From Chloranthus sessilifolius (lineage: Eukaryota > Streptophyta > Magnoliopsida > Chloranthales > Chloranthaceae), in contig CM037593.1 of NCBI GenBank assembly GCA_021018995.1, positions 4,244,088 to 4,308,087 of the forward strand: a stretch of 64,000 nt of DNA. The letters are read 5' to 3'. The notes under the pieces were generated by a model. That model made no database searches, was not told where the DNA came from, and saw nothing but the letters and a program-made list of their open reading frames with translations. A program made the position numbers and the translations under genes. Positions 4,538 to 64,000 of this stretch are shown in pieces (the stretch's first letter is position 1; every line of letters starts with the position of its first letter).

Positions 4538-4557
4538 TAAGCTACTTTTCCATCCTT

Positions 4558-5937
4558 TCAGTAGTTGCGGATTGTATCAATGAGAGGGGTACAAAGCTTA
4601 TACGACATCCGCATAGAGAAAAGGGGAACTCCGAGATACCGCAAGGGGAGCGATCCCTCTTTAAACTTTAGATTTGAAAGAACCCTAGCTTTGTCATTGC
4701 AACTTGAGATGAATATTAAAGTACTTTTTGCTGCATTGACCTTGAGACCCGAGAACAAATAAAACTTGTCCAGAATATCCCTTAATCTGGCAGCAGAAGA
4801 AGGATTATCTTGGGAAAAGATAAGAAGGTCATCGGCAAAGATCAAGTGAGAAACTTCTGGGGCATCTTTGATTTTACGAGGCTTGAACTTTCCGGCAACA
4901 ACGCTTTCATCAATAGTACAGGTGAGTGCCTCCATAACAATGGTGAATAATAATGGCGAAAGAGGATCCCCCTGTCTAAGACCACAATTACTAGGAAAAA
5001 ACCCATGAGGCAAGCCATTAATCAATACAAAAAACTTTGGTGAAGTAATGCACAGCTTGATCCAGTTAACCCACATAGGGTCAAAGCCAAGTTGAAGGAG
5101 GATGTTAAGAACAAAATCCCATCTAACTTTGTCATAAGCCCATTGAAGATCAGTCTTCGCACAGAAGGCTTTCGGTCCAGATAGAAGGTGAAAATTTCTT
5201 ACAAGTTCATGCGCCAATAGTCTGTTTTCTGTGATTTTTCTGCCTTTAATGAAAGCAGACTGATTCCCACTGATAATGGAAGGCAATACCAAAGCAAGTC
5301 TTTCAGACAAAATTTTTGTGATAACTTTATATAAAAAGTTGCACAAAGAAATCGGCCCAAATTTATCGAGCGTAATAGTTCCATTCTGCTTGGGAATCAA
5401 TTTGACGAAAGTAGGATTAACTGAATCAGGAAGCTTATTCTTGCTACAAAAAGTACTTACGGCCTTGATGAGCTCGCAGCCAACGATGTCCCAATGATCT
5501 TGAAAGAACTCTGCCGAGAAGCCATCAAGTTCAAGAGCCTTATTTCGAGGAGAATTAAAAACAATACTCTTAATTTCCTCTGCTGAGACAGCCGCATAGA
5601 GGGTCGTAGCCTGAGAGGAACTAAGCTTCTTCTTAAAGGGGAGTTGAGGGATGTCTTGACTCCCCGAGGAAGAAAATATTTGTTTGAAGTATTGGATCCC
5701 TTGAATCCCAATCTCTTTCTCATCTATACTGCTTATGCCAGAAGGAACCTGCAACTCGAACATACTATTTTTTGCAATATGAGAGGCAATAGAAACATAA
5801 AAAAATTTGGAGTTTTTATCACCACTATTAAGCCATTGAACACAAGCTTTTTGACGCATAAACATTTCTTCAATTTGCAGCTCCTTACGCAGCTCAAGAG
5901 AGGCTTCCTTCTCACGTGTGGCCAACCCATGGTTCAA
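4558..5937 (-). pseudogene. LINE reverse transcriptase (ORF2 fragment)
   Basis: A 459-codon open frame holding the reverse transcriptase that copies LINE RNA at nicked chromosomal DNA. Recognisable blocks in order: QSAFIKGRKI near residue 227, KTDLQWAYDKV near 261 (first catalytic Asp), LRQGDPLSPLLF near 320, and the FADD active-site motif at 367-370, then RYLGVPL near 434. These are the normal landmarks of plant L1 elements. A family member would have about 400 more residues upstream with an endonuclease; those are missing. The downstream zf-RVT and RNase H parts are in other frames, so the element is inactive although this piece has no internal stop. The frame begins inside the family's normal reading frame, so its first ATG is not a real start. 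Confidence 0.88.
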
Positions 5938-6150
5938 TTAATCGTTATCAATATCTGCCTAAATTTGTTGAAGATTCCTTCTCATTGCATCTGTACGGGC
6001 ATGAACAGAACCAAATGAAGAAGAATTCCAAGCTTTAATCCTTACTTTAAGGCTTCGAAGCTTTTGTTGGAGACAAAAAATGGTTGCCCCTCGAAAATAA
6101 AGAAAATAAAGAAAAATAAAGAAGAAAAACTCGAAAATAAAGAAAAACTT

Positions 6151-6233
6151 CATTAATGGAGCTCCTGTGTAGTTAAAGAAGAAAAATGAAAAGGAAAATA
6201 TATTTATAGATATATAATATTTATATAAACAAC

Positions 6234-6277
<44 letters not shown>

Positions 6278-6465
6278 ATAAATTCATATTGTGATGACTG
6301 CACGGCAGAAGAGCCCAACCTCTTCATCAACTCCCCTCCATCTTCTCCCCTTCCCCATGATTTTACACGTCTCTGTAACAATCTCTGTAACAAAGATTGT
6401 TCAAAAAAAAATATTGTTTATATACTGTTTTATAAATAGGATATTTATAACTACTGTTATATATA
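6151..6465. repeat. AT-rich spacer with (AT)n microsatellite
   Basis: About 20 AT dinucleotides run from 6235 to 6274. The remainder is AT-rich and holds no gene. The spacer separates the LINE from the inverted family-A LTR fragment. Confidence 0.8.
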
Positions 6466-7829
6466 TATAGATCTGAGATCAAGGGCATGGCTCGGCACAC
6501 TTGATCTCAGGTTCAAATAAAAATCATCCCCAAAGTGGGTAAAAATTTCAACAATAATACCACCATAGATCTGAAATCAAGGGCATGGCTCGGCACACTC
6601 GATTTCAGATTAAGGAGTAATTAAGATAAAATTACCATTACAGATCCAAGATCCAGGGCATGGCTCGGCACACTCGATCCTGGATCATAATCGTAATTAG
6701 ATCCACATGATGAAAGCAAAAAGACCATATAACAATGATTGGGTAAAATTACCGTCACAGATCTGAGATCCCGGGCATGGCTCGGCACACGCGATCCCGA
6801 TTAGTAGCGGGGATTTCATCCATTCTTGATAGCACAACAACCATAAAATAAGATCTCATATTTTAATCCTAAATTTATATTATTAAAAGTACATCCCTCA
6901 AATGGGAATCATTAGATCCCTATCCTTATGAATTTAGCCATACATATTGCAATTAAATGACATTAATAAATAAGGAAGAGAAAATAAAATAAATTTAATA
7001 AATTAAAAATACCTCAACTTCAAAAGAAATTACTTTGATCTAAAAGTACGATGGTCTTCAGAAACGAGAATAATGCGGGAATAAACTTGAGCAAAAATAT
7101 AATAAACTGGAGGAATGAGTACTGAAAATTAAAGGAACAAAGCTCTCAAAAAGGAATAAATAAAAACTCCCTATTTCTATGTCTAACTATAAAAAGAAAA
7201 GCAAAAAACTAAAACTTTAATCTCCTATCTCCCTAATTTCTAATTCTCCCTCGGAGTGTTTGAGTCACTTTAAATAGATTCCCGGTCGCAGAAGTCTCCC
7301 CAGCCGCCAATTTAGGGTCGATTAATCGACCCAATAGGGTCGATGCATCCACCCTAAAAAAGAGGCTCAAAATCATCTTTAAAGTAGTCAATTCCGTGTC
7401 AGACTCTCCTTCTCCTCGATTAATCGACCAAAAGGGTCGATGCATCGACCCAAAATCCTCAATTTCAAAGACACTTTTGTATCGAGACGATACGGTATTT
7501 CAGATATAACTTTCTGTCCCGAGTTCGGATTGAGGTGATTCTTACGCCGTTGGAAAGCTGACGAAAAGATCGACAATGTTTGTGTTTTGACGATGTCATA
7601 ATTCGGCCGCCCTGAATGTCCAAATTTTGCCGCAAGTCGCACCAAGTTCTCGATGACCCAAAGTTACAGTGTTTTGACATTATTTTCAGAATTCTTGGGC
7701 TGTTTTCCACACTTGGCTTGTATTTACCTGAAATACTTCAAATCTAATAATTCTCATCAGATAGCCTTCATCGGACAGCTAAATATAGGTATTTAGGAGT
7801 GAAATATCATCATATTTCAGTACTCATCA
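6466..7829 (-). repeat. Athila-type LTR (family A), partial, minus orientation
   Basis: Reads on the minus strand from TGATGAGTACTG (ending at 7829) to a break at about 6466, where homology with the LTR at 10497-12230 stops next to an (AT)n tract. The terminal ~400 bases of the LTR are missing. It keeps four GGGCATGGCTCGGCACAC-core units (6486-6795) and two TCGATTAATCGA palindromes near 7319 and 7416. No adjoining internal region is present, so it is a solo or broken LTR. Its orientation is opposite to the copy at 780. Confidence 0.85.
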
Positions 7830-10496
7830 CCTGCCACACGAGATCCATGTGTAGATAACCATCTAACCTTCGTATCATATCGTATACTACTATCCTGCTC
7901 GATGAGGTTGCATGCATTTAAATCATTATCCCTTTATGTTCGGGACACTGTTGTATCGTATATTCCTTAAGATCCGTCTTAGCTACAGACGTTGGATCTT
8001 GCGGTGGCTTGCAAGACATGACACGTGTAGAAACTTATTTCATATTTTGTTGGCTTTCACAACGTAACTTATCTGTATTCGTATCTTATATATCATTCTT
8101 TATCATTTACTTATCATTTAATTTTGAGTGAGCCACGGTACGATAAGATTTATAAAATCAGGTTTTTCAAGGGATGAGTTTCGTAGTAATCTGGATGTAC
8201 TTCATGTGGCAGCCCATAGTCCTATAGAGGTGTTTCATCTGTACATGGATGCCTACATTTCAAGTTTCACATTACTGTGAAGGAAACCCATTATGATGAT
8301 GAAGGATTAAGAGTCGTGTGACATAGCTTATTCCTTTTTAATCATGTGTATGCCTTATCGTAGTTTTCGATGTGATGTATGTTATATGATGGAAGGACTG
8401 ACCTGACTAAACAAAATCATTTCATACACCGTACATGTTTGTGATCATAATATAATGATTAAAATATGAAATGAACAAACATTTCCTACATAACTTTGGA
8501 AAATTTTTATGGGCCATTAGATTGCTTATGGAGTGATAAAGTGTGTTGTTCTTAAAGTTTTGTAAGATTTATGTGGTCTCTTTATCGGGATCTTTTACTA
8601 GTTTGACCCAAGAGTGGGTCGACGGGACGGGTCAAACAACCCCACTATCTTAGTTGTACAAGGGCTCATACTCCTTAATTTTTTAAACGTTCGGGCCTCA
8701 AATTTTTAATGACTGTTCTCCGATCCACTCGATCATACTATATTATCATCGAGATCAATTTGAAGTTGGTCCTATGGGCCATTCTGGCCCTTATTCTCAA
8801 AAGTTAAGGGGTCAAACGTAACCCATGGCATTATTCTTTGTAACACACAGGGTTGCAATAACAAATGAACTTCGAACCATCCATCATCTAATCTGGACCA
8901 TTAGATGGTCGAATAATATAATTTTACCTAAGGTTGGGTGTTTTCTCCCGATCCTGATCCGACGTCTAGCATACTAGATCCTCTCTAGTCAATATTTTAC
9001 AAGATCTAGGAATTACGTGCACAATTAGGGTACCCATTATGTGACAATCAAATTGAACGAACCTGACCCATCAGATACTTAAGAAAGATGATTTTGACGT
9101 GTTAGGTCATTGGGCCCAATTTATTTCGGCCTCTAAGGCCTCATATCTAAGGGTTAATCCCTTCATGATCGATGGTGTCCAAATGGGGTTCCAATTTCTT
9201 GATTTGTGAGTTGATTTCTCGGGTTCTGAACCGTAAGATGTCTCGAGAATTTCAATTTGTGGAGACTGTCCATCTCTGCACCATTTCTTGGGTCAGGTCC
9301 ATAAGGTCTAACTGTGAATCTATTTTGTTTGAATCCAGTGGTGCTAAGGGATGTTTGCACCAAATTAACCACATCAAGTAAGTTCTCTAATGCACCCATT
9401 ATAACACCTTGTGCTCATAAACTCTTTGGAACAATCGGACATCGACAACGCTTGATCGGGATGGTCGCTGGTGTTCGTTTGGTGTCGGTATGGCATCCAT
9501 CCGATCAACTCTGATGGCACACCGGCGGCTCAAAATTTTCCGATTTTGACCTCCTTTCCTTTGCTTCTATTCCTGTGTAATAGAGAGGATGAGGAAAACC
9601 TTTGATTTTTCTCTCTGTCTAGATCTCCCTCTCTTCACTTCCTTTTACTTACTCTCTGATCATCTCTTTTTTTTTTCTTTTTTCCTCTCTAATCACTCCT
9701 CTTTCTACAATTCAATCCTCTTTTATTTTTGTTTTGCAGTATGTGGGTAGAGAAGGTTTGGGGAAGAGGACAACCAATTGAAGTTGAGCTGCTGTATAAC
9801 TCACCTATATATATATTATCCCTATTTAGTTTTAAAGAGTCTCCCTCTCTAAATTTCAGCTAAAAACCATGGGCCTCTCTTTCTAAAGACCATTGGTCCC
9901 TCTCTCTCTCTCTCTAAATTTCAGCTTAAAACCATGGGTCCCTTTCATCTCTCTCTCTCTCTAGATTTTTAGTTTGGTCTCCTCTCTTCTCTCTCAATTT
10001 TTAGTTGGATTTTCTCTCTCTTCTCTCTCTCTAGATTTTCAGTTGGGTCCTCTCTCTCTAAATATCTTAGTTGAGTCTTGTCTCTCTCTCTCTAAATTTC
10101 TGTGCAATATATATATAGGCCCGGGGATATGCGCTCGGACATAGAGATATCTATACGCCAATTGATACGAGCACGAGACGTAATGTCCTTTTTGTGAAGA
10201 AGTGGGTGACAATGGTGTAGACACCCTCATTTCACCCTCTCGGAGTACACGAATTCGTTTGGTCAACCATTGACCTTTCTAACCCTCGACACGGGACCAT
10301 GCAACAGTACATGACTGAACACAGGCTGAAACAATAGCTCTGTGGCTCAGATCTCGACGTTAGGAGGCTATATATTAAACAATAGAATATAGTCAAAATG
10401 CAGACTAAAATAATAGTCATGCATTCCATTCTTGAGACCATACCCGGACGACCTTGAATTGAGCGCCTAAAAGCTGGCGCGTAATTCGATCATGTG
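7830..10496. other. Long intergenic stretch, no recognisable gene
   Basis: Short open frames here (for example 9163-9399 minus) resemble nothing I know. From about 9830 to 10110 the sequence is a pyrimidine-rich minisatellite: units of (CT)n followed by AAATTTCAG or AGATTTTTAG and then TTGGGTCC or CCATGGG recur at irregular spacing of 45-75 bases. The left target duplication of element A would be ATGTG at 10492-10496, but its partner on the right was not found. Confidence 0.4.
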
Positions 10497-12230
10497 TGAT
10501 GTGAATTTTAATTGTGATATTTTTCTCGCAAGTGCACGAATCGGATTGTATATAGTGGGTGCGGAGTACGAGATCGTTCTCACGAGGACTAATTTTGAAA
10601 GATCTAAAAAGACAAGCAATTCCAGAAATCTACTAAGATCTAACAGTATTCTACCAGTCTTATGATTTAGGTGGTTTGATGAGATGATAATTACTGACTA
10701 CAAACTAAAATTTAACTGATAATTCAAAAATAAAGATAAAGATGAAGATACTAAATCCTCCCATCTTTGGTCCGTCCTTCCCATAATACAAATCTACGGA
10801 TTAAACTATCAGATATACCATTGAGAACAAATATCTTTTATGGAAGATAAATAGTCAAAAACCCCGATAGGTTCCACGTTGCATCCCTGTAATCAGGATT
10901 TAGATGATTTTCATATATAGATCTGAGATCAAGGGCATGACTCAGCACACTTGATCTCAGGTTCAAATAAAAATCATCCCCAAAGTGGGTAAAAATTTCA
11001 ACAATAATACCACCATAGATCTGAAATCAAGGGCATGGCTCGGCACACTCGATTTTAGATTAGGGAGTAATTAAGATAAAATTACCATTACAGATCCAAT
11101 ATCCAGGGCATGGCTCGGCACACTCGATCCCGGATCATAATCGTAATTAGATCCTCATGATGAAAGCAAAAAGACCATAACAATAATAGGATAAAATTAC
11201 CATCACAAATTTGAGATCCCGGGCATGGCTCGGCACACGCGATCCCGGTTAGTGGCGGGGATTTCATCTGTTCATGATAGCACAACAACCATAAAATAAA
11301 ATCTTATATTTTAATCCTAAATTTATATTATTAAAAGTACATCCCTCGAATGGGAATCATTAGATCCCTATCCGTATGAATTTAGCCACACATTTTGTAA
11401 TTAAATGACATAAATAAATAAGGAAGGGAAAATAACATAAATTTAATGAATTAAAAATACCTCAACTTCACAAGAAATTACTTTGATCCAAAAGTACGAT
11501 GGTCTTCAGAAACGAGAATAATGCAGGAATAAACTTGAGCAAAAATATAATAAACTGGAGGAATGAATACTGAAAATTAAAAGAATAAAGCTCTCAAAAA
11601 AGAATAAATAAAAACTCTCTATTTCTATGTCTAAAAATAAAAGACTAAAGCTAAAAACTCTAATCTCCAATCTCTCTAATTTCTCATTCTCCCTCGAAGT
11701 GTTTGAGTCGCTTTAAATAGATTCCCGGTCGCAGAAGTCGCCCCAACCGCCAATTTAGGGTTGATTAATCGACCCAATAGGGTTTAAATCAGCTTTAAAG
11801 TAGTCATTTCCGTGTCAGACTCTCCTTCTCCTCGATTAATCGACCCCCAGAAATCCGTGAATTTCAGCACACTTTTTGTATCAGACACTCCTTCGGTATT
11901 TCAGCTATAACTTTCTGTCCCGAACTCGGATTGAGGTGATTCTTGCGCCGTTGGAAAGCTGACGAAAATATCTACAACTTATGTGTTTTGACAAGTTCAT
12001 AATGCGGCTGGATTGAAGGACCAAATTTAGCCGCAATTCACACCAAGTTCTCGATGACCCAAAGTTACAGTGTTTTGACATTATTTTCAGAATTCTTGGG
12101 CTGTTTTCCACACTTGGCTTGTATTTACCTGAAACACTTCAAATCTAATAATTCTCATCAGATAGCCTTCATCGGATAGCTAAATATAGGTATTTAGGGG
12201 TGAAATATCATCATATTTCAGTACTCATCA
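10497..12230 (-). repeat. 3' LTR of element A (1734 bp)
   Basis: Bounded by TGATGTGAATTTTAATTG on the left and CAGTACTCATCA on the right, i.e. TG...CA on its own strand. The adjoining internal sequence TACCCCCAAACCT is the complement of a G-rich polypurine tract, as required at a 3' LTR. It holds the same GGGCATGG...GGCACAC-core units (10927-11250) and TCGATTAATCGA palindromes as the other family-A LTRs. Confidence 0.92.
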
Positions 12231-19689: not shown

Positions 19690-20960
19690 AACACAATGGG
19701 TGGACAACAACCTTTTCAACCAAATTTTCAACACAATTTTCGTCCACAACAATTTCCAGTGAATTCTAATTTCCAGCAAATTCAATTTCCAACAGAATGC
19801 TCAGATTATCATCCAAATTCGACTCAGAAAAATCGAATTTCAATCGTAATCTTAATCAATCTCATGCCAAGATTGAAGATTACGATCTGGAAGAAAAGCT
19901 TATCTCGAAGCATGCAATCTTCAGATGATAATGGACCAAGTCGATCAATTGGCCAATCAACTGAGTCGTGAGAGGAAGGTAGGCTCCCAACCCATCAATA
20001 ATCCTCGAGGCCAAGCACCATCCGCGGGACCATCGAATAGTCAACAGGTTGAAAACATTGCGGTCTTTGAAGTGGTCGAGAGGTTGATAATCAAGTGGAA
20101 ATGCCTGTAGAAGCTGATGAAGAAAGAGAAGCAGTAGAAGAAAAAGAATCAGAAAAAAGAAAGAAGAAAGGAAAAGGAAACGAGAAAGGAAAAGGTAAAG
20201 AGAAAGAAAGAGACAAAGAGACAGAGATAAGGGAAGTGCAAGAGCAAGGAAAAGCAAAAGTAATAGAGGAAGAGTTTCCTTCAACCGTCCAACAAGGACG
20301 TGAAAAAGAATCGGAAATGGAATCTGCACCTTATGTCCCAAAGGCACCATTCCCTCAATGCCTAACTCCTCCATCTAGAATGGGAAAGGGACCGACAAAA
20401 ATGGAAGAAATTTTCGAAACATTCAAGCAAGTAAAGATAAATCTTCCATTACTTGAAACAATCAAACAAGTTCCGAACGCCAAGTTTTCAAAGATTTGTG
20501 CACCCGGAAGAGAAAGGCACGTACACACGTTTCAAAGAAAGTGTCCCTAACAAATCAAGGCAGTGCGATATTGCGATTGGAAACCCCACGAACCGAAGAC
20601 CACAGGTCCCAAGCTGTTCCATGTATTGGTGGGCAACCAATTGGAAAGGCGTTATTGGATTTGGGAGCAAGTGTTAATCGATCCCATACTCAATGTACGA
20701 AACTCGGATTGGGTGAATTGAAACCCACGATGGTCACACTCCAATGGCGGATAGATCGGAGAAAGAAGACCGAGGGTGTTATCGAGGATGTTTTGGTTGG
20801 AATAGACAAGTTTGTCTTTCCGGTGGACTTCGTTGTCTTAGACATGGAACCACCAAATCAATCCATCAAGTCCCAATTATTCTTGGGCGTCCGTTTCGCC
20901 ATACGCCAACGCTTGCATTAATTGTCGAGTCATGGGCGTTTCTTTTGGAAACATGAAAGT
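19690..20960 (+). pseudogene. Element B gag-protease linker and aspartic protease
   Basis: A Gln/Phe/Asn-rich segment (19700-19790) is followed by a highly charged Lys/Glu linker (20095-20270), then a retropepsin-like protease with DLGASVN at 20658-20678. DLGAS in place of the usual D(T/S)GA is normal in Athila elements and is also seen in element A. The domain runs on to about 20900 (FPVDFVVLDM) in a neighbouring frame. Frame changes prevent a single protein. The long Lys/Glu frame is part of this linker and not a separate gene. Confidence 0.78.
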
Positions 20961-21499
20961 CGGGCTTAACATATTCCATGCGATGAACCATTTCCCTAAT
21001 GAGGATGAGGTCAATGTTTTACATCGATCGGATGATGAAGTGGTGGATGAAGCATTACCATCAATGCTCACCAAAGAGGAATTTGAAACCGCTTTGTTAG
21101 CCATCTATGAGGACAAAGGGCTTGAAAGGAAGCGGTCGGAAGAGAAGCATCAAATTCATCATGTCAAGATGATAACTTATGTGAAGTTGTGACTAAGGTA
21201 GAACCACTACTCATCGAGGTAAAGGATGTCTTGACTCCATCAATTGAGCTGACCACCAACTGGAATTGAAACAATTGCCTAAGTCCCTCAAATATGCTTT
21301 TACGGGACCTCGAGAAACACTTCCGGATAATTTCATCCACATTATCGGAAGAACAAGAGAATGATTTGTTGAAGGTCTTTGAAAGAGCACAAGGAGGCCA
21401 TCGGATGGACCTTAGCGATCTCAAGGATTGACCCATCGGTATGTATGCATAAAATACATCCGGAGGATGAGAGTAAACCATCGAGGGAACCACAGAGGC

Positions 21500-24091
21500 G
21501 ACTTAATCCGAACATGCAAGAAGTCGCTTTAAAGGAAATCATTAAACTCCTCGATCTGGAATCATCTATCCGATCTCGATAGTGAATGGGTTAGTCCGGT
21601 ACAAATCGTTCAAAAAGTCCGGAATTACAATGAAAGAAACTACGGAGGAGAATTGGTGCCCACTCGTGAAACTCTTTGGATGGCGTGTGTGCATTGATTA
21701 TCGAAAATTGAACACGACCACGGAAAGATCATTTTCCTTCCGTTCATTGATCAAATTCTTGAGAAGTTAATGGGCAAGAGTTTTATTGCTTTCTTGATGG
21801 TTATTCGGATACAATCAAGTGCCCGTTTTCCTGATCAAGAGAAGACAACATTCACGTGTCCATATGGTACGTTTGCATATCGAAGGATGCCATTAGGCTT
21901 ATGTAATGCTCGCCACGCGTTTCAACGATGTATGTTGGCCATATTCTGGACATGATCGACAAATTCATCAAGTCTTCATGGGCGACTTCTCGGTTTTGCA
22001 AAAACATCTAATTCTTGTTTGAATCATCTTTCACAGCTGTTGCAACGTTGTGTAGATTCCAAACTTGTTCTCAGCTGGGAAAAGAGCCATTTTATGGTTC
22101 AACAAGGAATTGTGTTGGGGCATATTGTTTCAACGAAAGGAATTGAAGTTGATAAAGAAGGTCGACTTAATTGCAAATTTACCACCTCCTAAAAGTGTTC
22201 GACAAATTCGATCATTTTTGGGGCATCTTTGGATTTTATAGAAGATTCATTAAGGATTTTAGCAAGGTGGCTAACCCATTGTGCACTTTGCTTGGCAAAG
22301 ATGTTCCTTTTGATTTTGATGAGGATTGCATAAAGGCATTCCTAAAATTGCGTGAACTCTTATCAAATGCACCAATAATCCAACCACCGGATTATTCTTT
22401 ACCATTCGAACTCATGTGTGATGCATCTGATTATGCGATCGTGTCTTAGGGCAAAGGGTGAATAAATTACCTCCGTAATTTATTATGCTAGAAGACATTA
22501 ATTGATGCCCAACTGAATTACACCACCACCAGAAGGAATTATTACATGGTGTATGCTGGACAAATTCCGTTCCTATTTGCTTGGATCGAAAATAGTGGTC
22601 TTTTGAGACCACTGCGCTTTGAAATATCTTTTAGCAAGAAGGATCACGAAACCAAGGCGATCCGTTGGATCACCTTCTCCGAAATTCAACTTTGAGATTA
22701 AAGATAAAAGGGGTTGAGAACGTTGTTGTGGTGATCATCATCTAGAATTCTCACTGAAGAATCATCTATACCGAGACCATCCGTGACACATTTCCGGATG
22801 AACATTTGATGGCAATTGATGTAGGTGCAAAAGTTCCGTGGTTTGCTAACATCGTGAATTATCTCGGTCATCGGCGAATTCCCTTGAGTGGGGTAAGAAT
22901 GATAAGAATCTCTTTTCTCCCAAATAAAATACTATTTACGGGATGAACCATATTTGTTTAAATTACTGCTCGGATCGGATCATTAGGAGATCGTGCGGAA
23001 GGCGAGCAACTAAGCGTCCTAAATTTTTGCCATCTTTGGGGCTGTGGAGGCCATTTGAGACGAAGACCGCCTGAAAATCCTTCAAAGCGGATTCTCTTGG
23101 CCCTCAATCTTCGTGTGCTCAATCAATCGCAAGGAATGCCAGCGGTGTCAACGACTTGGCAATATTTCCTGACGAAATATGATGCCTTAATCCAATTGAT
23201 TGTTGAAATTTTCGATGTTTGGGGATTGACTTTATGGGTCCTTTTCCACCATCCTTTGGGTATTCATATATTACGGTGGTATTGACTATGTCTCCAAATG
23301 GATTGAAGTCTGTGTACCCGATCAAATGATCACAAGGTTGTGGTCAAATTTACGAGAGAACATGTGTTTAACCGATTCGGGATCCCAAGAGCAATCATCG
23401 TGATGGCGGTTCGCATTTTTCAATAGCCATTTTGCCACTTTAATGAAGAAGTGACGTCACTCACAAAGTCGCTTTCGTACCATCCAGACTAGTGGTCGGT
23501 GGAAGTGTCTAGCAAAATCAGCGAATTCTAGAAAAGGCGGTAAGGACCGGATAGAAGAGATTAGTCAAACCGCTGCTATCGATGCTTTGTGGGCCTATCG
23601 TCGCATTCAAGACACCGATCGGAATGTCTCCCTTGAAATTGTCTACGGGAAGGCATGTCATCTTCTGTCGAATTGAGCATAAGGCATTACAGGCGATCAA
23701 GCGATTTAATTTCGATATGCAAGCAGGTCGAATCGAAGGTTCTGATTGAGTGAATTAGAAGAGTTACGCTCGATGCGTATGAAAATTCAAAGATGTACAA
23801 GGAAAGGTACAAAAGTTGCACGATAAATTAATTTCTCGGAAGGAGTTTCATGTTGGCCAAAAAGTTTGGTTATTCAATTCCCGACTTAAGCTCCATCCTG
23901 GGAAATTGAAATCTAGATGGGAAGGCCCGTTTCAGGTTGTTTCCATTAGTGAGCACTTGCAATTGAAATTCAAAGCCTTGAGGACAATCGAGTTTTCAAA
24001 GTGAATGGGCAAAGACTCAAACCAATGTTTGAGCCGATGACCCGATTTAAGATTGAGGCGATGCACCTTAGTGATCCGATTCTTGATCAAT
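21500..24091 (+). pseudogene. Element B reverse transcriptase, RNase H and integrase remnants
   Basis: Pieces in all three frames follow the family order. RT: WRVCIDYRKLN near 21690, TFTCPYGTFAYRRMP near 21850, LGLCNA near 21900; the FMDD active site is corrupted. RT connection and RNase H: FGFYRRFIKDFSKV near 22230 and LMCDASDYAI near 22410. Integrase: CHLWGCGGHLRR near 23030, EIFDVWG near 23205 followed by a damaged DFMGPF, and the C-terminal VWLFNSRLKLHPGKL near 23860, ending about 24091 with HLSDPILDQ. At least a dozen frame changes are needed, far more than in element A. Confidence 0.85.
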
Positions 24092-53852: not shown

Positions 53853-53867
53853 CACTACAAAAAAAAA

Positions 53868-54185
53868 GACTTTTAGAGACCAGTATTGGAGACGGCTTTT
53901 CGAAGTCGTCTCCAATAATCATATATTAGAGACCGCCATTTCAAAAGCCGTCTCGAAACCTTTTATTAGAGACGATCATTGAAAAGCCGTCTCCAATAAC
54001 CATTTATTAGAGACGACCTTTTCAAAAGCCGTCTCCAATAATTACATTGCATTCGAGCCATAAAATGACATACCGTCTCCATATATTTCTGATGGTGAAC
54101 CTTTATAGACGACTTGAAAGTCCGTCTTTAAAAGTCTCCTTTAAGATCAATAGAGACGGCTTAAAGGATTAAAGGCCGTCTCTCA
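53868..54185 (+). repeat. Subterminal repeat array of CACTA-2
   Basis: Copies of AAAAGCCGTCTCCAATAA and its complement-like ATTAGAGAC(C/G)G occur about eight times in the first ~200 bases, with looser copies to 54185. Such subterminal motifs bind the TnpA-type protein in the maize En/Spm system. Many are paired inverted, so short hairpins form. The array would help define the missing right end, which should carry the same motif. Confidence 0.85.
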
Positions 54186-54390
54186 AATGCACACCAAAAT
54201 ATCATATGGATAGCTTTATATGCACCTTTTTATTTGTGAATTACAATGATGGGAAAGCATGTGTTCTTCACAGAACAAATGGGTGCATATAACGCCTCCC
54301 TGTTTGTAATTCTCACTTGACGCCAGCCTCTCTCTCTCTCTCTCTAAAAATAGCATCTCAGCCCACCGATGGGCCAGCTCTCTCTCTTCC

Positions 54391-54400
54391 TATATAAACT
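54391..54400 (+). promoter_or_regulatory. TATA box candidate of CACTA-2
   Basis: CTATATAAAC follows a CT-rich run (54329-54390) and precedes a pyrimidine-rich leader. It lies about 540 bases inside the left end. It is the best candidate for the start of a transcript spliced to the transposase exons from about 57920. Confidence 0.5.
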
Positions 54401-55339
54401 CAGCCATTTCGTTGAGAGAAACTCAAAAGTCATTTCATCTTCTTGGCTAGTCTCTCCTTTCTCTTCCTCAGAAACTGAGTAAACTCGATAATCCTTAGAT
54501 TTTGCTTCTATTCTCAGCTTAGATCAGAGCATTTTCACTTCGATTCGTGCTCCCATACAGAGATTTCAGCATTTTTCACCTCGATCCGTTCTTCGACAGA
54601 GATTTCAGCCTTTCCGATACATTTTCTTAGGGTTTTGTAAATTTTTGGAGCTTTTTTGGTGTGGAGAACTCAAGGAGACGTCAGATTTCGGGAATGCGAT
54701 TCGTGATTCATGAAGGCTGCATCGATTGAAGGTCCCTTAGATTGAAGGTCCCTTAGATCTATCAAATTACATCATCACGGAAGGTTAGATCTCATGTTTA
54801 TCTCGAGTTCCGATTCGTGATTCGTGATTCGTGATTTCTGATTTCTGATTTTTAATATTTAATATATTCATAGATTTGAGATCTAAATTTTTCTTACTTT
54901 TTTGGGGAATTTTGTCAATATATTTTAGAGTAATTCATATATTTGAGATCCGTTCTTCAATTTTGCTTTATTTTGCTAATTTTCAAGCTATAGCGCCTGC
55001 GAATTGCATCATAACCTTTTTTTTCTTTTAAATTATTTACTACTACACCTTTTCTATTGATCAACGACACTTATACAATTTAGTACTAAATATTCATATT
55101 CATATTGGTCAGATAGCTGCTGTCCACTTTTAAGCTTAGAAAAATTAATCAGACATGCTCCAGAACCTAGAGAACACAGTGATATCAGATACACCTTTTT
55201 TCGTTCAGACATAAAATTCATCTGAGGTTTCAATAGTTTGGATGCTACTCTGCACCTGAGAACTCTGATTGGTTGATGATTCTGAGATGAGTATTTCAGT
55301 CTCCTGTTTTCCAAAGAACTTGGAGGAATATTGGAATGG

Positions 55340-55449
55340 GAGGAATCGACAACTATTATTCCCTCCAAAGTTGAACAACCTGCATCATTGATGGCCTACA
55401 TGTCTCATCATCTTGTATGCACCAACAAGCAACTCTGCATGCTATTTTG
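55340..55449 (-). pseudogene. Captured receptor-like kinase C-terminal piece
   Basis: On the minus strand it encodes ACRVACWCIQDDETCRPSMM then QVVQL, and after a one-base frame change EGIIVVDSSH. CRVACWCIQD(D/E)E...RPSM.QVVQ(I/L)LEG is the kinase subdomain XI region of G-type lectin S-receptor-like serine/threonine kinases. Only ~35 residues are kept. It is antisense to the transposase within the upstream intron region of CACTA-2. The frame change shows it is not functional. Confidence 0.75.
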
Positions 55450-57573
55450 AAATCTTGCGTATATTTTTATTATCAACTTTGGTTTATGGTAAAAACAATT
55501 ATTCATTATTTTAGAATGCAAAAATATGCATGCACATAGTATATAAACAATTAGTTATAACAGGCAACCCTTTGATGAGATAAAAGAATAAGGCAATATA
55601 CAAGCATATAGTATATAAACACATCTATCAGTTAGTAAAATAAGTTTTGCTAAGAGCAAAGCAATGGGTGCATACCGCATCAACTTGAACTGCTTTATTT
55701 TAAGATATTTTGTATGTGACTGTCAGCGGTTAACAAGTTTTGATGGGCTAAAGTGTACTTCATAAGCTTGATAACCTTATGATGATGTTGACACCCCTAA
55801 TAATTTGTCTATAAAAATGCTGGTATAACGTATATATCATGTGTACGTGTTTTTTTTAATTGGTCAGCAAAATAGTTTTTCTTTGTCCCATGCCCATCAA
55901 AATAATACTCCTTTGCCACACTCTAGACTCTGGCATTCGCCTCATTCTCTATGTCAATTAACATTGATTTTCAACTTGGTGATACAGACTAGTCTCGTGT
56001 TTTATTTGAAGGTACATGTCGTATATACCATTTTTCCATATTGTCTCATTTGGCTTATCTTAGTTTGCATCTGATGATAAATATTGCATTTTTGAATGGC
56101 ATAGTTACTAGGCAACATAGGTTTCCCCTTGCTAATGCCTAAGTTTCACCCCTTTTCAGTCTTTATAATGCAACATTATATTTGCATTTTGTGTTTTTTT
56201 GTCGTTTTGATAGTGTTTTCATAACATATTTTGCACGTTCTGTAGGATGTCCATGGAAATTCATAATATTACATTAAAATCTAAGGGTTGAAGTTAACCT
56301 TTATAGCAATTATTGTTATTGGGATGCTGTAAGTGAGAAAAGTCTTTGATATATATTTTTAGGTCCAATCTATTGAGGATGTATCAGAAGAATAAAATAT
56401 AAAAGAAACCCTATATCAGCATCATGATCATCATCATAGCCTTATCCCATCTATTTGATGTCAGCTTCCAAAGCCTATATCCATTCTACACAAATGGGAA
56501 GAAAAGCAAACTAAAATACCTAAGATGTAGAAAATGACTCATGATGCCACAAGTTGGAGGCACAGGTATTCTAGTGAGTGTTAGCCTTTTATGACTACTG
56601 ATGAATATGGTTTAAGGTTTTTGGTCATACTGCCTTGGGCGTGGACCGCACACTGATATGAACATAAGCTGCAACCTTTCTTCAAGAGAAATAATCGACA
56701 TCAGTAAGTATTGGATAAAGAACACCACATACTAATGAACTAGTAAAGAAAATACTCAAAAATCAACAACCCCGAGAACTCAGCTTCCAAATGAATAAGT
56801 GAATACATTAAGATGTAACACAAAAACTAAGAATTTGGGAGGACAAAATACTAGTTGTATGCAGCACACAGCATTGTAGGCAGTCATACCATTTCTACAA
56901 TAATGAGTACGGAAACAGTTCAATCAATGATAATCTTAGTACTCAAAAGGATATGCTTATGATAATTATAGACTCAAGAATTAGTTCCTAGTGTATTTTT
57001 GTAGTTCTGATTCTCATTGTTAAATATATAGATATTAGATGGACAGCTAGAATTGGTTTGAACAAAAAAGTACAAAAAAAGAAAAGAAAAAGAAATTTCT
57101 TTTTTTATACCTGAATCATCTCCCCATTGTCAAATGTTCTTTATGTTCCTCATTTATCTACACAAGTCAAATGTTCTTTATGTTCCTCATTTCTTTTGAA
57201 TCGTTATACATGAAAAAGGATCTTAGTGTAGGTCTTCTGGCTAACATTTCCAATTTTCTTTATTATATAGATGAAACTAGATTTATTATATAGTTGTGGT
57301 AAATGTCATGTTAATATTACTATGCTTTCACTAGCTCGGTTTCTTAGGAAACTACGCTTTTTCACATCTCATTTATCAGCTGATTAAAGTGGTCCGCACG
57401 TCCTTTCATTATTCAGCTGATTAATCTATAACTTTTGTTATAGATTAATGGTCACTATATAGTTGAATACATATGAATATCATCATACAAAATAAGTGCC
57501 CGTCTGAAAAGTTATATGTCGAATTATTGACATATAACCTTTCGGATTATCTATCCGAGGATAGATAGTTTGG
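55450..57573. other. Intron-like DNA of CACTA-2, no gene recognised
   Basis: AT-rich, without a supported coding region. A stretch at about 56438-56470 (CATAGCCTTATCCCATCTAT) resembles a short motif common in plant intergenic repeats. Other captured pieces may be hidden here but I could not recognise any. Confidence 0.4.
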
Positions 57574-57823
57574 GAATATCATGTACATTAGTTGTTCACT
57601 AATATGATTTTTAGAGTTTTCTCAAATGATTTCGACATATTTCTCCTTTGTTCTTCGGATACGTACTTTCATATATTATTTTGTATTTTTCATTGTCCAT
57701 TGTGGATAATGAAAAGTATAAAATAGTATGAAAAGTCTGCGATTTGAAGAACTACGTGAGATGTCAAATTTTTAGAAAACTCGAACTCATATTATGTGAA
57801 CAACTAAATGACTTGATATTCTG
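57574..57823. repeat. 250-base foldback in CACTA-2
   Basis: Two ~120-base arms pair imperfectly around a loop at about 57697-57702 (TTTTCATTGTCCA ... TGGATAATGAAAA). The ends GAATATCATG...ATTAGTTGTTCAC and GTGAACAACTAAAT...TGATATTC also pair. No target duplication was found. It could be a small MITE or a hairpin source of small RNAs; it lies just upstream of the transposase coding region. Confidence 0.75.
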
Positions 57824-57921
57824 CAAAACTAATGAATATGGTACAAGAAATATAAACCTTTATCATTTTAAAAATATTAAAGCTACATTCCTTATACTTT
57901 TAGGGGTTTGAAGCTTTTATA

Positions 57922-60900
57922 TGATGGAAAAGAGTTGGGTAAAAAGTCGAGATATTCTAGAGAGTATGGCGAAGGGTTGGTGCATTTGTCGATCAGGGTT
58001 TAGCCCATGGAATTACTTGCAATGGGAAGCTCAAGTGTCCTTGTACAAGATGTTGTAATTGTGTTTACTTAGAGCCCGACTTATTGAAGGAGCATTTGGT
58101 AATAAACGGGATGATGAAAAGTTATGTTGTATGGACTTATCACGGAGAGAAGAGAGGGCCCTTTGCCTAGATATGAAACTATGGTAGATATTAGAGCCGA
58201 TGACAACGAGAATGTTTGGTTGATGACATCAGGGGGATGGTGCAAGATGCTTTTGGATTTCCGGACCCAAATGAAGACGCAGATGGTTTGGAACAGGAAC
58301 AAAGTGATGTACCCAATGCTAGTGCTTCTGAATTCTATAAATATGCGCATGATTTGGGGAATCCCTTGTATCCTGGATGTAACACACATACGACGTTGTC
58401 TTTCATTGTGAAACTTTGGCATATCAAGGCCCTTGGTGGATGGAGCAACAACTCTTTTACGTTGTTGCTTGACTTACTAAGGGAGGTTTTGCCTAAAATT
58501 CGACGCGTTGGAGAACTTCTCACAAAGCAAAAAGATTATTTCGGGCTTGGGACTAAATTACAATAAAATCGGCGCATGCCCTTACGATTGTATGTTGTCT
58601 TTGGAAGAATGTCGAGAAAAAGAAAAATGTGACATCATGGGACACCGCGATGGAAAAATCATGAGATTGAGGATGACAAGAAGACTCCTGCAAAGATTCT
58701 TCGTCACTTCCCTTTAAAACAACGATTGCAACGTTTGTATTTGTCATCAAAAACTGCAGCTGACATGAGATGGCACGATGAGAAACTCACTAAAGATGGG
58801 GTGTTAAGACATCCTGATTCTCCGACATGGAAACACTTTGACAAGATCAATCCAACATTTGCGAGAGGAAAATCGCAATATAAGATTGGGTTTAGCAAGT
58901 GACGGTTTCAACCCATTCGGACAATGAGTATTGCGCCGACACATGGCTGTACTTATCCCATATAATCGCCTTAGTTTGTGCTTGAAAATGAACACATGAT
59001 CCTCTCATTGCTTATACCGGTCCGACAAGTCCCGAAATGACATCGATGTATACCTGAGGCCTCTAATAGATGAGCTAAAGGAATTATGGGAAGAAGGGTT
59101 GGAAACATACGATTCATCAAAGAGGGAGGTTTTCAAATTGCGAGCGGGCTTGCTTTGGACAATTAGCGACTTTCCAGGATATGCTATGCTTTCAGGTTGG
59201 AGCACTAAAGGATATAAAGCGTGTCCTTATTGCCATGAGAATACATGCAGTGAACGGTTGCCAAATTGTGGGAAGCTTTGTTATATGGGTCATCGCCGAT
59301 TTTTACCTTTAGATCATAGATTTCGAAAGAATAAACGGTGGTTCGATGGAAATATTGAAGAAAGAGAAGCTCCAACCCCACTAACCGGGAAGCAAATTTT
59401 GGAGAATTTAAGAAATTATCAACATACCTTTGGCAAGATCCCCAAAACTGACTATTCTGTGAAGAAACCAAAGAAGATGAAGAAAAAAATGACAAAAAAT
59501 GCACCTCCTATGCCAACAATGCCAAATAACTGGAAGAAGTTGAGTATATTCTTCGAGCTACCATATTGGTCAGAAAATTTACTAAAACACAATTTGGATG
59601 TTATGCATATCGAGAAAAATATATGCGACAATGTGGTTGGTACACTACTGGACCTGGAAGGAAAGTCAAAGGATGGTTTGAAAGCACGTCTTGACTTGAT
59701 GACAATGAACATAAGACATGAGCTCCACCCAAAAGAGCATGCAGATAAGAGTAAAGTGTATCTACCATCTGCATGTTACTCTATGGATAAAAGTGAGAAG
59801 GAGATGTTTTGCCTAATCCTGAAGAGCATGAAGATTCCTGATGGTTATGCCTCTAACATTTCAAGGTGCGTTTACGTCAAAGATCGAAAAATATCCGGGC
59901 TCAAAAGTCACGACTCACACGTTATTATGCAACAATTTCTACCTCTTGCTATTCGGAAGACCGTGCCAAAAACTGTCAGTTCTGCTCTAATAGAACTAAG
60001 CACGTTCTTTCGTGAGTTATGCTCTAAAACATGTCGAGTTGAGGACTTCAAATGTCTACATGAGCGCATACCATTGATTTTGTGCAACTTAGAGCGGATT
60101 TTTCCACCTTCATTTTTTGATATTATGGTCCATTTACCCATACACTTAGCATCAGAGGCAATGCTTGGTGGACCTGTCCATTACCGCTGGATGTATCCCA
60201 TCAAAAGGTATGATCCATACAATCTCTGCAATTATCTTTACTTTTATAAATTATGTTTGATTTCCCTTAATGGAAGTACATTCATTTCTATGTATGCAGA
60301 TACTTGTACACACTTAAGTCATATGTACGCAATAAAGCCTATCCCCAAGGTTCCATTGCGTAAGGATACCGATGAGTGTCTCACATTTTGCTCAAGGTAC
60401 TTACAAAATATTGAAACACGATTGAATAGACCCGTCGGTATGCCGAGGACTTGCAATTGGAGGTGCCGAACAATTCATTCTCACCAATATCGACGTAAAC
60501 AAATGCATAACTATGTATTGTTCAATGATGATAGCGTCGCTCGATATGTGAAGTAATAACTCCCAACCTCTTTATATTGTCGGCCCATTTGAATTCAATC
60601 TATTATACTCACCTCACATCCATTTAATGCAGACAGCATAAATCATACATTAACCTGAAGTATCGTAAGCGGAAAACTGATTACGAGAAACAAAATATAT
60701 ACAAAGAGCAGTTTAGCGATTGGTTTAAATCACATGTAAGTGTGAGGAGATAATTATTTTTATACACTTAAAAGAGGCACTAACTTTGTTATCCACATCT
60801 AATAGATTAAATCAATGATTGAGGCCAATAGTACGTTGCCGGAGAGACTCGATTTACTCGCTGATTTTCCATACACTCATGCAAGAAGATTCACTGGATA

Positions 60901-61516
60901 CACTATCAATGGTTATAAATTTCGAACAACTAATAAGGAGAGGAAGGCTACAACACAAAATAGTGGTGTGATGGTCATTGCAAGCACTCCAAGCTATTCA
61001 AGCGCAAAGGACAAAAATCCAGTTTCAGGGGAGATCACATATTACGGACGTCTCGTGGACATAATTGAGTTGACTTATCGCCAAGGGCTGAAATTAGTGC
61101 TATTCAAGTGTGACTGGGTTGATGTTGGACAACGCAAAGGTATTAAAACAGACCAATTAGGGTTCACGCTTGTGAATTTTACACATTTATCTGCATCTCA
61201 GAAAGACGAACCCTATGTGTTGGCATCTCAAGTAAAGCAAGTTTTCTACGTCGAAGATCCAACCGAACCAGGCTGGCATGTTGTCATCAAGAACAAGCCC
61301 AGGGACACTTTCGATATGAGTGGAGGAGACAATATACTACTAGACAGTGAGCCATATGGTAGCCAAGTTCAAATTGGTACCCGAGAAGATGATAGTACTT
61401 TCAATATCGTGAGGGAAGATGTGGTTGGAGCAATTGTAGATGCACCTTTCCAAGCCCCTTGTACCCGAAAACGTCCTTCCGATGGATTCATTGATGACGA
61501 AGAAGATGAAAATTGA
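57922..61516 (+). pseudogene. CACTA-2 transposase (TnpD type), decayed
   Basis: Start at 57922 (MEKSWVKSRDIL) with a frame change soon after, then GKLKCPCTRCCN of the Transpos_assoc region. Transposase_21 from 58216 (CNTHTTLSFIVKLWHIKALG) into a 485-codon frame at 59099-60556 with WTISDFPGYAMLSGWSTKG, LDVMHIEKNICDNVVGTLL and a DUF4218-like part (KSHDSHVIMQQFLPLAIRK, GGPVHYRWMYPIKR). An intron with AG at 60300 follows. DUF4216 is 60815-61516 (YTINGYKFRT, YYGRLVDIIELTY, LFKCDWVDV). Frame changes near 57960, 58570-58920 and 60360 inactivate it, though it is better kept than CACTA-1. Confidence 0.9.
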
Positions 61517-61938
61517 TTTTAGATTGATATGTAATGATTTCAATTCTATATAGATGGAGTTTTCAATCCTTTCGCCTATTTGATTCTAGTTGGTATTTCT
61601 ATGAGTAAATTAGGTAAACCTTAACTTATCATTTTAATTATGCTAATGATTATGAGATTCAGTTTTTAATAATTATTTGCGTCATTTTGCTTATATTTTG
61701 AACATGTTGAGATTTAATGAGATTATTTGATATTTGTATTTGTGTCAGATGACCGACGTAGATCCACCTCTACGTCGTACTCTGGTGATGTCATGCTGGT
61801 GCCTTTTTTCTATTCATGAGCAAAGCCATCAAATTAACATGTTTTGGACTGTACCTAATGCACACTAAGATTTTGAGAAGGAATTTTACAGTTTGGAAAA
61901 AATTGTAGGATTCTAAATTTTTTAATTCTCCTGATCAG

Positions 61939-62046
61939 ACCGTTCAACAAAATGCTTACCATCGAGATCCTTTTGCTCAAGAGTTTGGAATCAAAATTAG
62001 TGAGAGACTTGCTTCAGTTGAAGCACGCATTTTACCTGCACCTAGA
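61939..62046 (+). pseudogene. Captured ARGONAUTE1-type exon (linker before MID)
   Basis: Exon of 108 bases with AG before 61939 and a GTAAGT donor at 62047. It encodes [20 protein letters not shown] then [16 protein letters not shown], the end of the PAZ domain and the linker in AGO1/AGO10-type proteins, the slicers that use microRNAs. The family usually has Trp where this copy has Arg as the last residue. It continues correctly into the next exon at 62152. No other part of AGO1 is visible, so no functional protein is expected. Confidence 0.86.
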
Positions 62047-62151
62047 GTAAGTAAAGTGACGTATGCGATTTCATCATTCCCTAGTTGCCACCTCTGCTTT
62101 TGAGTGCTTTATAGTGATGTCTGTAAATTATCCTTATGGGTTAATGTGCAG

Positions 62152-62223
62152 CTCAAATACCATGACACTGGTAGAGAGAAGGATTGTTTGCCTCAAGTGG
62201 GTCAGTGGAATATGATGAACAAG
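62152..62223 (+). pseudogene. Captured ARGONAUTE1-type exon (next in order)
   Basis: A 72-base exon with GCAG acceptor and GT donor (62224). It encodes [20 protein letters not shown] and then MMNK, the conserved AGO1/AGO10 segment at the start of the MID region. Together with 61939-62046 it gives 60 contiguous residues across a 105-base intron with intact splice sites. Frame and splice phase are kept, so the two exons could still be joined in a transcript. Confidence 0.88.
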
Positions 62224-62825
62224 GTATTTTGTGCTTTAAGTTTGTCTTTTCAATTTAATGTGTATTTTTTATTTAATATAAAATAAAACTGAGAGTAGGT
62301 ATCTGAAATCGATCAACTTTTAAGTTAGTTATTTTATTTTATTATTATTAATTTTTTTTGAAACTGGTAAGTTTTATTCACAGAGGGTGCGAATAGAGGT
62401 ACCCAAGGGAAATAAGGTTTTATGTCAGACAAGAAAGTAGACTAAGGTGCAAGCTGGGATGAAGTAGAAGCTGAAAGAAGAGTGAACTAATTGAACTAGG
62501 AATAAATCAGTGATGGAAAAAATTTACCTCATATCTCAAAATTTGGGAAATTAAGCTATCGGAACTGTGGCATGACTCAAGTCAGATCTCAAGAAGGCAA
62601 TAAGGCGACTTTAGAAACATCATAAAAAATGGCTAGTTGTCTTTGCTTTTCCGAAGTCAAGGTTACTTAAAGGATTATTCTTGAATCATAATTTGATTGT
62701 TAGAATTTAGGGATCTTCCATTGATCCCAATTTCCATAAATTACATCCAGTACCTTTAGATTTGTTTTTAGTTGTGATTTGCCCTACTATGTTATTATAT
62801 AGAGATCAAAATTTCTGTTTTGTAG

Positions 62826-62941
62826 TTATCTCAGAAGACATGGTGAAGGATGGGTATGAAGATATAATGAACATTGACATATCAGCAGTTGCCATTGACA
62901 TGATGAAAAGGAAATATGCAGAAGTTCCTCAGTTGAAATGT
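62826..62941 (+). pseudogene. Captured METTL13-like methyltransferase exon
   Basis: After a TGTAG acceptor-like site it encodes ISEDMVKDGYEDIMNIDISA then VAIDMMKRKYAEVPQLK. GYEDI.NIDIS is motif I/post-I of the S-adenosylmethionine fold in plant METTL13/EEF1A-lysine methyltransferase-like proteins; the acidic D in NIDIS contacts the cofactor ribose. The downstream sequence departs from the family directly after QLK. Single-exon piece in transposase orientation. Identification is from recall of the family and is less certain than for AGO1 or XLG. Confidence 0.72.
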
Positions 62942-63239
62942 ATCCTCGTCAAATGAAATCTTGTTGTTGATTTCAAGTTGTGTTGGAAACAGTCTCATAA
63001 ATGCACAGAAGCGCGATGATAGGATGGTTTAAATTCTGCGATCAGCATGTCCTTTAGGCCAAGTCCCATCTACAGATGACCTGTCACTTGGACATCTCAG
63101 ATTGATGACAGTGCGTGCCATATGTATGTATAGTTGGTCCAACAACCACAGCTGGTGCTTGGTGCTGAGTCTCCTGACACCTACTCTGATTCCTATATAT
63201 ATGTTTACATAGGTGTGCACATGCATGTGTGTGTGTGTG

Positions 63240-63535
63240 CATGCGTTCACATAATCACGTTGTAGCTGCTAAGTCACATTGGGACCAGAATTGGCTGAGC
63301 TGGTTTCCAATATTGAGTAATCTGTAAAGTAATGTTAGCACTGTCTTTTTGCCCTCATAGGAAGCAGGGAAATGCTAACAAAATTGTGTGTATCAAATTA
63401 TTTCATTAATTTTTCTAACAAACAAGGTTCACATAATCACATCGTGACTTCTAACTGCTAAGTCATGTTAGAACCTGTAAACTTATGTTGGTAATGTCTT
63501 CTTGCTCTCATAGGAAGCAGGGAAATGCTAAAAAA
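63240..63535. repeat. Tandem duplication before the XLG exon
   Basis: Two ~110-140-base units, from about 63247 and about 63430, both begin GTTCACATAATCAC and both contain CTCATAGGAAGCAGGGAAATGC near their end. They lie in the DNA directly upstream of the XLG exon at 63552, so the duplicated part may be the original XLG intron. Confidence 0.75.
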
Positions 63536-63551
63536 TTGTGTTGTATGACAG

Positions 63552-63692
63552 GAGGGATCAGAAAAACCAGATAAAATCATTAGTTCAAACTTGAATTTCT
63601 CTGGGAGGCTTAGTTCTGAGGCAAGCAATGGAAACACTGATGTTTATATTAATGGCCGAGAAATTACAAGGATTGAATTGAAAATTCTAAAG
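63552..63692 (+). pseudogene. Captured extra-large G protein (XLG) exon
   Basis: A 141-base exon (47 codons) with ACAG acceptor and a GT donor at 63693. It encodes [20 protein letters not shown], then [20 protein letters not shown] and IELKILK, a segment of the plant-specific N-terminal half of XLG proteins, the atypical G-alpha subunits that signal with G-beta-gamma. Splice sites and frame are intact. No other XLG domain is present up to the next exon. Confidence 0.86.
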
Positions 63693-63833
63693 GTAGACCT
63701 ATTAGTCCCCTTAAGCTGGAACTTTGCTCTCTCTCTATAGATACGATATTGTTTGAAATTTTATTTATTTCAATCTGTTATCAACGTGAAATAGAGATTG
63801 ACAGGTTATGTAATGTTTTTTTTCCGCTTTAAA

Positions 63834-63929
63834 GTGCAATGTCCACGTGGAACACATTTCTGGGTCTATGATGATGGTAGCTATGAGGAGGAAGGTCAGA
63901 ATAACATCAGGGGGTACATTTATGAAAAG
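63834..63929 (+). pseudogene. Captured XLG exon (next in order)
   Basis: A 96-base exon ending at a GT donor (63930). It encodes [20 protein letters not shown] then [12 protein letters not shown], which follows directly on the previous segment in plant XLG proteins. The intervening intron is 141 bases. Phase and order are right, so capture of a genomic segment with its introns is the simplest reading. The window ends about 70 bases later. Confidence 0.86.
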
Positions 63930-64000
63930 GTACAGACAACTATCACTTAGGGATTCAAGCTTCGACCCGAAACCGAACCAAAAACCGAGCGAACCTAACA

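Follow-up and report, generated by a model that had tools for sequence, protein, structure and literature searches.

The window, that is, the whole stretch of 64,000 nucleotides of nuclear plant DNA from Chloranthus sessilifolius at C10:4244088-4308087, was analysed together with the genome to which it belongs (2.17 Gb in 32 contigs). It holds part of a CACTA transposon, CACTA-2, which carries exons of AGO1, methyltransferase and XLG type downstream of a transposase gene. The features located in the window and in the adjoining C10 sequence, where the window numbering is carried on beyond position 64000, were as follows.

53853-69303 (53853-64000 in the window), plus strand: CACTA-2, with CACTAC/GTAGTG ends and TAT on both sides
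53889-54182, no strand: 5' subterminal repeats GCCGTCTC/GAGACGGC, from exact motif positions
59000-60556, plus strand: tnp2-type transposase gene, open stretch (Transposase_21, 9.5e-54; DUF4218, 5.4e-33)
60806-61516, plus strand: transposase gene, 3' open stretch (DUF4216, 4.2e-25)
61773-61774, no strand: scar of a 1.56-kb deletion of the second CACTA gene, from alignment with the copies C2 and C15
61783-62281, plus strand: AGO1 segment, two exons (61939-62046 and 62152-62223) and intron, 96.2% and 97.5% identical to the likely C12 AGO1 donor
62282-62387, no strand: filler X, with 96-97% matches at C2:42365936, C12:27826709 and C12:16395840 (two loci read)
62382-62979, plus strand: methyltransferase segment, one exon (62826-62939), 96.5% identical over 599 bp to the likely C1 donor
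62977 to about 64608, plus strand: XLG3 segment, exons 63552-63692 and about 63827-63929, 94.6-98.9% identical to the likely C12 XLG donor
63948 to about 64339, no strand: hAT-like insertion in the XLG intron, with duplication CTATCACT, read from the sequence
68437-68672, plus strand: AFB-type (TIR1/AFB) auxin-receptor exon (TIR1 2p1m, 4.3e-16)
68993-69280, no strand: matching GCCGTCTC/GAGACGGC repeats before the right end, from exact motif positions

Ends, transposase genes and sister copies

The copy of CACTA-2 in the window (HOME; the other two complete copies are referred to as C2 and C15) was 15,451 bp long, with CACTACAAAAA as its left end at 53853 and GTAGTG as its right end at 69303. 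CACTACAAAAA was present at both ends, as in CACTA terminal inverted repeats, and short subterminal repeats of the EnSpm/CACTA kind were found at both ends as well, being clustered in HOME solely at these two places. The original prediction had placed the exons inside the element, downstream of its transposase gene, and expected a right end formed by GCCGTCTC repeats and then GTAGTG with a TAT duplication; this was the end found at 69303. The right end did not lie before 61939, and the exons were not those of intact neighbouring genes, which were ruled out by the ends of a single element enclosing the cargo. The four identified cargo genes (AGO1, methyltransferase, XLG and AFB) had the same orientation as the transposase. 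When the flanks of HOME were rejoined with a single TAT, the reading frame of an older CACTA became continuous again, indicating that CACTA-2 is nested inside this older element.

Each of the three complete copies was flanked by a 3-bp target duplication, which was TAT in HOME, CAG in C2 (15,435 bp) and AAT in C15 (10,885 bp). The tnp2-type gene was split over several frames in HOME, and it was without 59234-61365 in C2 and without 58538-60880 in C15. The 1.56-kb stretch deleted from HOME was still present in C2 and C15, and in C2 it encoded Transposase_24 (2.6e-07). A tnp2-type transposase gene and a second gene of Ptta/En-Spm type were both found, and no single copy had the two of them complete.

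C15 carried the cargo without the XLG exons, in the order AGO1 4078-4820, filler X, methyltransferase, 190 bp of XLG intron and then AGO1 from 9503. A pattern spanning the methyltransferase|XLG join (3 mismatches at most) was found at three places in the 2.17 Gb, namely HOME, C2 and C15, and the reversed pattern, used as control, gave 0 matches in the same 2.17 Gb; these are three elements that were inserted separately, each with the methyltransferase|XLG mosaic. A rearranged copy, C13, had AGO1 8921-11084 and an identical 3' end in the part of its locus that was read.

Captured exons and likely donor genes

The five exons predicted within the window were all real and correctly placed, they were approximately 97-100% identical to exons of host genes, and 9 of their 10 splice sites were intact in HOME. 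The prediction that every splice site and frame had been kept did not hold for the second XLG exon, in which the acceptor was damaged (ttccag in the donor, ttccgc in HOME) and 2 nt of the exon were gone; both the acceptor and the 2 nt were retained in C2. This damage corresponded to one of the scrambled patches described below and is hence a possible assembly error.

The two AGO1 exons, with canonical sites, encoded linker-2 (Pfam ArgoL2, 6.7e-14) and matched residues 485-544 of plant AGO10 (7sva) over all 60 aa (2.5e-28), in agreement with the AGO1 type proposed for them, and they differed from the donor at 0/108 and 1/72 sites. The methyltransferase exon differed at 3/114 sites, and the XLG exon at 63552-63692 was 3 nt longer than its donor counterpart. 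The translations of the captured methyltransferase and XLG exons alone matched no Pfam family, so that these exons were identified by their agreement with the donor genes. The hAT-like insertion predates the capture, since the alignment with the XLG donor runs through it.

Host DNA coding for AGO1, XLG, methyltransferase and AFB lay inside the element ends, with a likely donor gene for each elsewhere. For the first three, parental genes with matching introns were found, as the original prediction had proposed to look for, and their sequences suggest that an AGO1 gene and an XLG3 gene of C12 and a methyltransferase gene of C1 are the likely donors (positions are numbered in the reverse-complemented donor stretches). 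The AGO1 donor (C12:16523000-16536999) had exons from PAZ to the C-terminus, and 658 aa aligned end to end with AGO10. The XLG donor (C12:114278000-114317999) contained XLG exons of the XLG3 class, the best relative being 70% identical; the name XLG was taken from the relatives of these exons, and a 404-aa join of them gave no Pfam match. The methyltransferase donor (C1:83859000-83868999) contained the captured exon and downstream exons, and the donor exons (66 aa) matched 2pxx (MGC2408) at 4.2e-10 and Methyltransf_11 at 1e-7. The METTL13 label of the original prediction was therefore right as to a methyltransferase, and judging from these matches the gene would be better called METTL13/EEF1AKMT4-like, EEF1AKMT4 being presumably the name for this type. 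A repeat unit of several kb at three loci on C6 and C14 carried part of the methyltransferase exons, and it is possibly another capture.

Introns were kept in the cargo, which ruled out a retro-copy origin. The three genes predicted were all present, and the cargo had been undercounted: AGO1 PIWI exon pieces and the AFB-type exon followed beyond the window at 66126-68672. The cargo of HOME began with AGO1 4242-4819, with a 70-bp gap inside (the piece starts at 4078 in C2 and C15), followed by filler X and methyltransferase 5057-5655, by XLG 19716-21309 and 22394-22530, by about 20 bp of unmatched sequence, and then by an AGO1 scrap (7615-7656) and piece Y (64668-66125). Then came AGO1 8012-8870 (reaching 9103 in C2), a 100-bp methyltransferase filler found in HOME only, AGO1 9644-10475 and 10628-11084, AGO1 2697-2761, and the 3' end of the element with the AFB-type exon. 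The 65-bp AGO1 intron piece at 68380-68444 (donor 2697-2761) was in permuted order, as it comes after the piece ending at 11084. Piece Y, of about 1.46 kb, had relatives of 86-91% identity at four places on C12 (3.6-5.7 Mb), and the long frames at three loci where it occurs yielded no recognisable source gene.

The AFB-type exon, which gave no Pfam match, adjoins the CACTA 3' end and is common to many relatives of the element; an open exon at C3:51686901 is its probable donor. Of 36 genome matches to this piece, 6 were in frames of 253-274 codons and 30 were outside gene-like frames, so the same CACTA family has spread an AFB-type exon. When 15 of these 30 were aligned as element copies, pN/pS was 0.92 and a stop or frameshift was present in 4. 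This value ruled out that the exon is kept by selection; it evolves neutrally and is apparently a passenger in the element family.

CACTA-2 is most likely a gene-capture CACTA like Tgm-Express1 of soybean and the Pack-CACTA elements. Tgm-Express1 has been reported as a 5.7-kb CACTA, located in the intron of a gene, that carries pieces of five unrelated host genes with exons and introns kept; RNA evidence showed the pieces to be joined as cassette exons into chimeric transcripts (PMC1947982). It is the direct precedent, both being CACTA elements with several unrelated host gene fragments that retain exons and introns, but CACTA-2 is 15.5 kb long, keeps a split transposase gene, is nested in another transposon, and was studied at the level of DNA sequence, where sister copies were found and donors mapped. 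Pack-CACTA elements, reported to hold the most distinct loci in maize (PMC8903248), likewise have CACTA ends and host coding DNA of several loci. Pack-TYPE elements are, however, described in the cited accounts as non-autonomous and without transposase (PMC8903248, PMC13317346), whereas HOME retains a transposase match in split frames and C2 and C15 keep part of it, and for this reason CACTA-2 was filed as a gene-capture CACTA and not as a strict Pack-CACTA. Capture of AGO1 by a CACTA was found in none of the titles and abstract openings listed for papers on CACTA with argonaute and captured fragments.

Assembly of the cargo

Gene capture by transposons is already known, and the steps of capture are seldom visible in plant DNA transposons. 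Here the likely donors can be compared directly with the sister copies, and with these donors and three complete elements in one genome, template switching and merged insertions could be compared join by join.

Without a chance control, the shared bases computed were 3 at the methyltransferase|XLG join, 5 at the internal XLG join and 3 at AGO1|Y, and those counted by eye were 4 at AGO1|X, 3 at X|methyltransferase and 3 at filler|AGO1. The transposase deletion of C15 had 11 shared bases with one mismatch (by eye), the scar of the 1.56-kb deletion in HOME had 0, and the AGO1 11084|2697 join had at most 1. Small inserts of 2, 4, 4 and about 20 bp were present at four joins. In 19 tests by exact extension, representing 16 distinct joins, two joins had 3 bp and one had 0; at the others substitutions or short insertions stopped the extension, and shared bases there, if any, are those seen by eye. 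The filler at 66984-67083 of HOME showed 0 differences from the methyltransferase pieces of HOME or C2 and 1 from that of C15, as compared with 1 from the C1 locus, 1 from the C6 locus and 2 from each C14 locus, which makes an element its probable source.

We consider it probable that CACTA-2 is a gene-capture CACTA whose mosaic of unspliced genomic pieces was assembled by template switching in repair. The captured host DNA lies downstream of the element's genes and before its 3' end. A break inside the element would have been repaired and each piece copied in during the repair, as the copying end switched from one template to another where short sequences were shared; later deletions and fillers would have made the copies differ. 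The cargo would most likely be a passenger, and any transcript a variably spliced chimera of little coding use. For the animal Pack-TIRs, short shared sequence at the joins, template switching and subsequent transposition of the chimera have been reported under the name FoSTeST, and the authors suggested that extending the model to plant Pack-MULEs merits study (PMC8277862). CACTA-2 resembles these elements in the shared bases at the joins and in the template switching proposed, and differs from them in having several donors within one plant element.

Alternatively, a pair of CACTA copies lying next to or within AGO1 may have moved as one element and taken along the AGO1 sequence between them, the rest being added later by repair. 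This is the published model for Pack-CACTA (PMC13317346, PMC8903248), and the main AGO1 pieces do lie in gene order and would derive from a single stretch of about 7 kb (donor 4078-11084); however, the subterminal repeats of HOME cluster at the two ends only, and neither the position of AGO1 2697-2761 behind 11084 nor the three other donors, on other contigs or far away, would be explained, which makes such an origin rather unlikely. We prefer repair with template switching over merged neighbouring insertions. As a speculation, a circular AGO1 intermediate could account for AGO1 2697-2761 following 11084.

Coding potential, selection and differences among copies

The phase is 0 at the end of the second AGO1 exon but 1 at the start of the methyltransferase exon. 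When the five window exons were chained, 66 of 179 codons were open, and the full chain of HOME, made of six usable exons (without the damaged XLG and truncated AGO1 exons), was open over 66 of 211 codons, which ruled out a single continuous frame over all exons. The longest open stretch in the full chain of C2, with eight exons, was 89 of 257 codons. Chains that skip exons were open in HOME over 107 aa (AGO_a, AGO_b and XLG_a) and, with AGO_f added, over 152 aa, and one of 177 aa was open in C2, so that a chimeric peptide may be possible. The chimeric open frame of the original prediction would then survive in these shorter chains and not in the chain of all exons; as a whole, what it had observed was confirmed in part and its interpretation supported in part.

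Exon and intron change was compared in six aligned blocks covering HOME 61783-68370, with C15 in four of them and columns within 3 of a gap dropped. The donors differed from all the copies at 6 of 829 exon sites and 107 of 3404 intron sites (Fisher, 1.9e-5), and at 3/715 and 93/2926, respectively, when the methyltransferase was left out. With 45% of the change taken to be neutral and to have occurred on the element, the expected number of exon changes is 13-17.5 (P 0.0015-0.024), and with 25% it is 8.5-14.3 (P 0.012-0.26). A constrained donor explains part of this contrast, and either a divergent donor allele or exons that were once constrained may be behind it. The donor-element differences comprised 31 C>T/G>A, 24 T>C/A>G and 58 transversions, and these types of change gave no branch for them. 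Present constraint is opposed by the neutral AFB exon and by exon damage, which affected an XLG exon in HOME, one exon in C15 and two AGO1 exons in C2 (a scrambled patch and a 27-nt deletion).

These data bear on the idea of a functional cargo, in which a chimeric transcript, or small RNAs matching AGO1 and XLG, would benefit the element or the host. It is favoured by the 9 canonical splice sites out of 10 in the window, by the skip-exon chains that stay open (in HOME over at most 152 aa, in C2 over at most 177 aa), and by a donor-element change much lower in exons than in introns, but it appears improbable to us, given that different exons were damaged in different copies, that the AFB exon had a pN/pS of 0.92 with a stop or frameshift in 4/15 sequences, and that a constrained or divergent donor could also yield the exon/intron contrast. 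Perfectly matching 21-mers relative to the donors were possible at 323/520 positions for AGO1 (seven exons), 192/203 for XLG (two exons) and 72/94 for the methyltransferase; all were sense and none antisense. Transcription of the AGO1 and XLG3 pieces, if it occurs, could produce small RNAs that match a silencing effector and a G protein. Even less credence is given to a selfish counter-silencing device, in which the AGO1 exons would yield small RNAs matching AGO1, or else a truncated transcript of AGO1 type, and so lower or decoy the silencing machinery that restrains the element; were this true, the near absence of exon change relative to the donors would be a trace of selection. That the exons are part of intact neighbouring genes or of a separate element beside CACTA-2, as the hAT-like element at 63948-64339 and the repeat unit with methyltransferase exons at three other loci might suggest, is hardly believable, since the cargo is enclosed by the ends of a single element and is found again with other copies of that element, and the hAT-like insertion was already in the donor XLG intron.

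Besides single changes, scrambled patches of approximately 3-20 bp distinguish HOME, C2 and C15 (at 54831-58537 and in cargo exons); possible causes are errors in the assembly or local switches of template. Along 61366-63239, HOME and C2 were 99.5% identical, as compared with 95-97.7% elsewhere (gaps counted), perhaps as a result of exchange between the copies.
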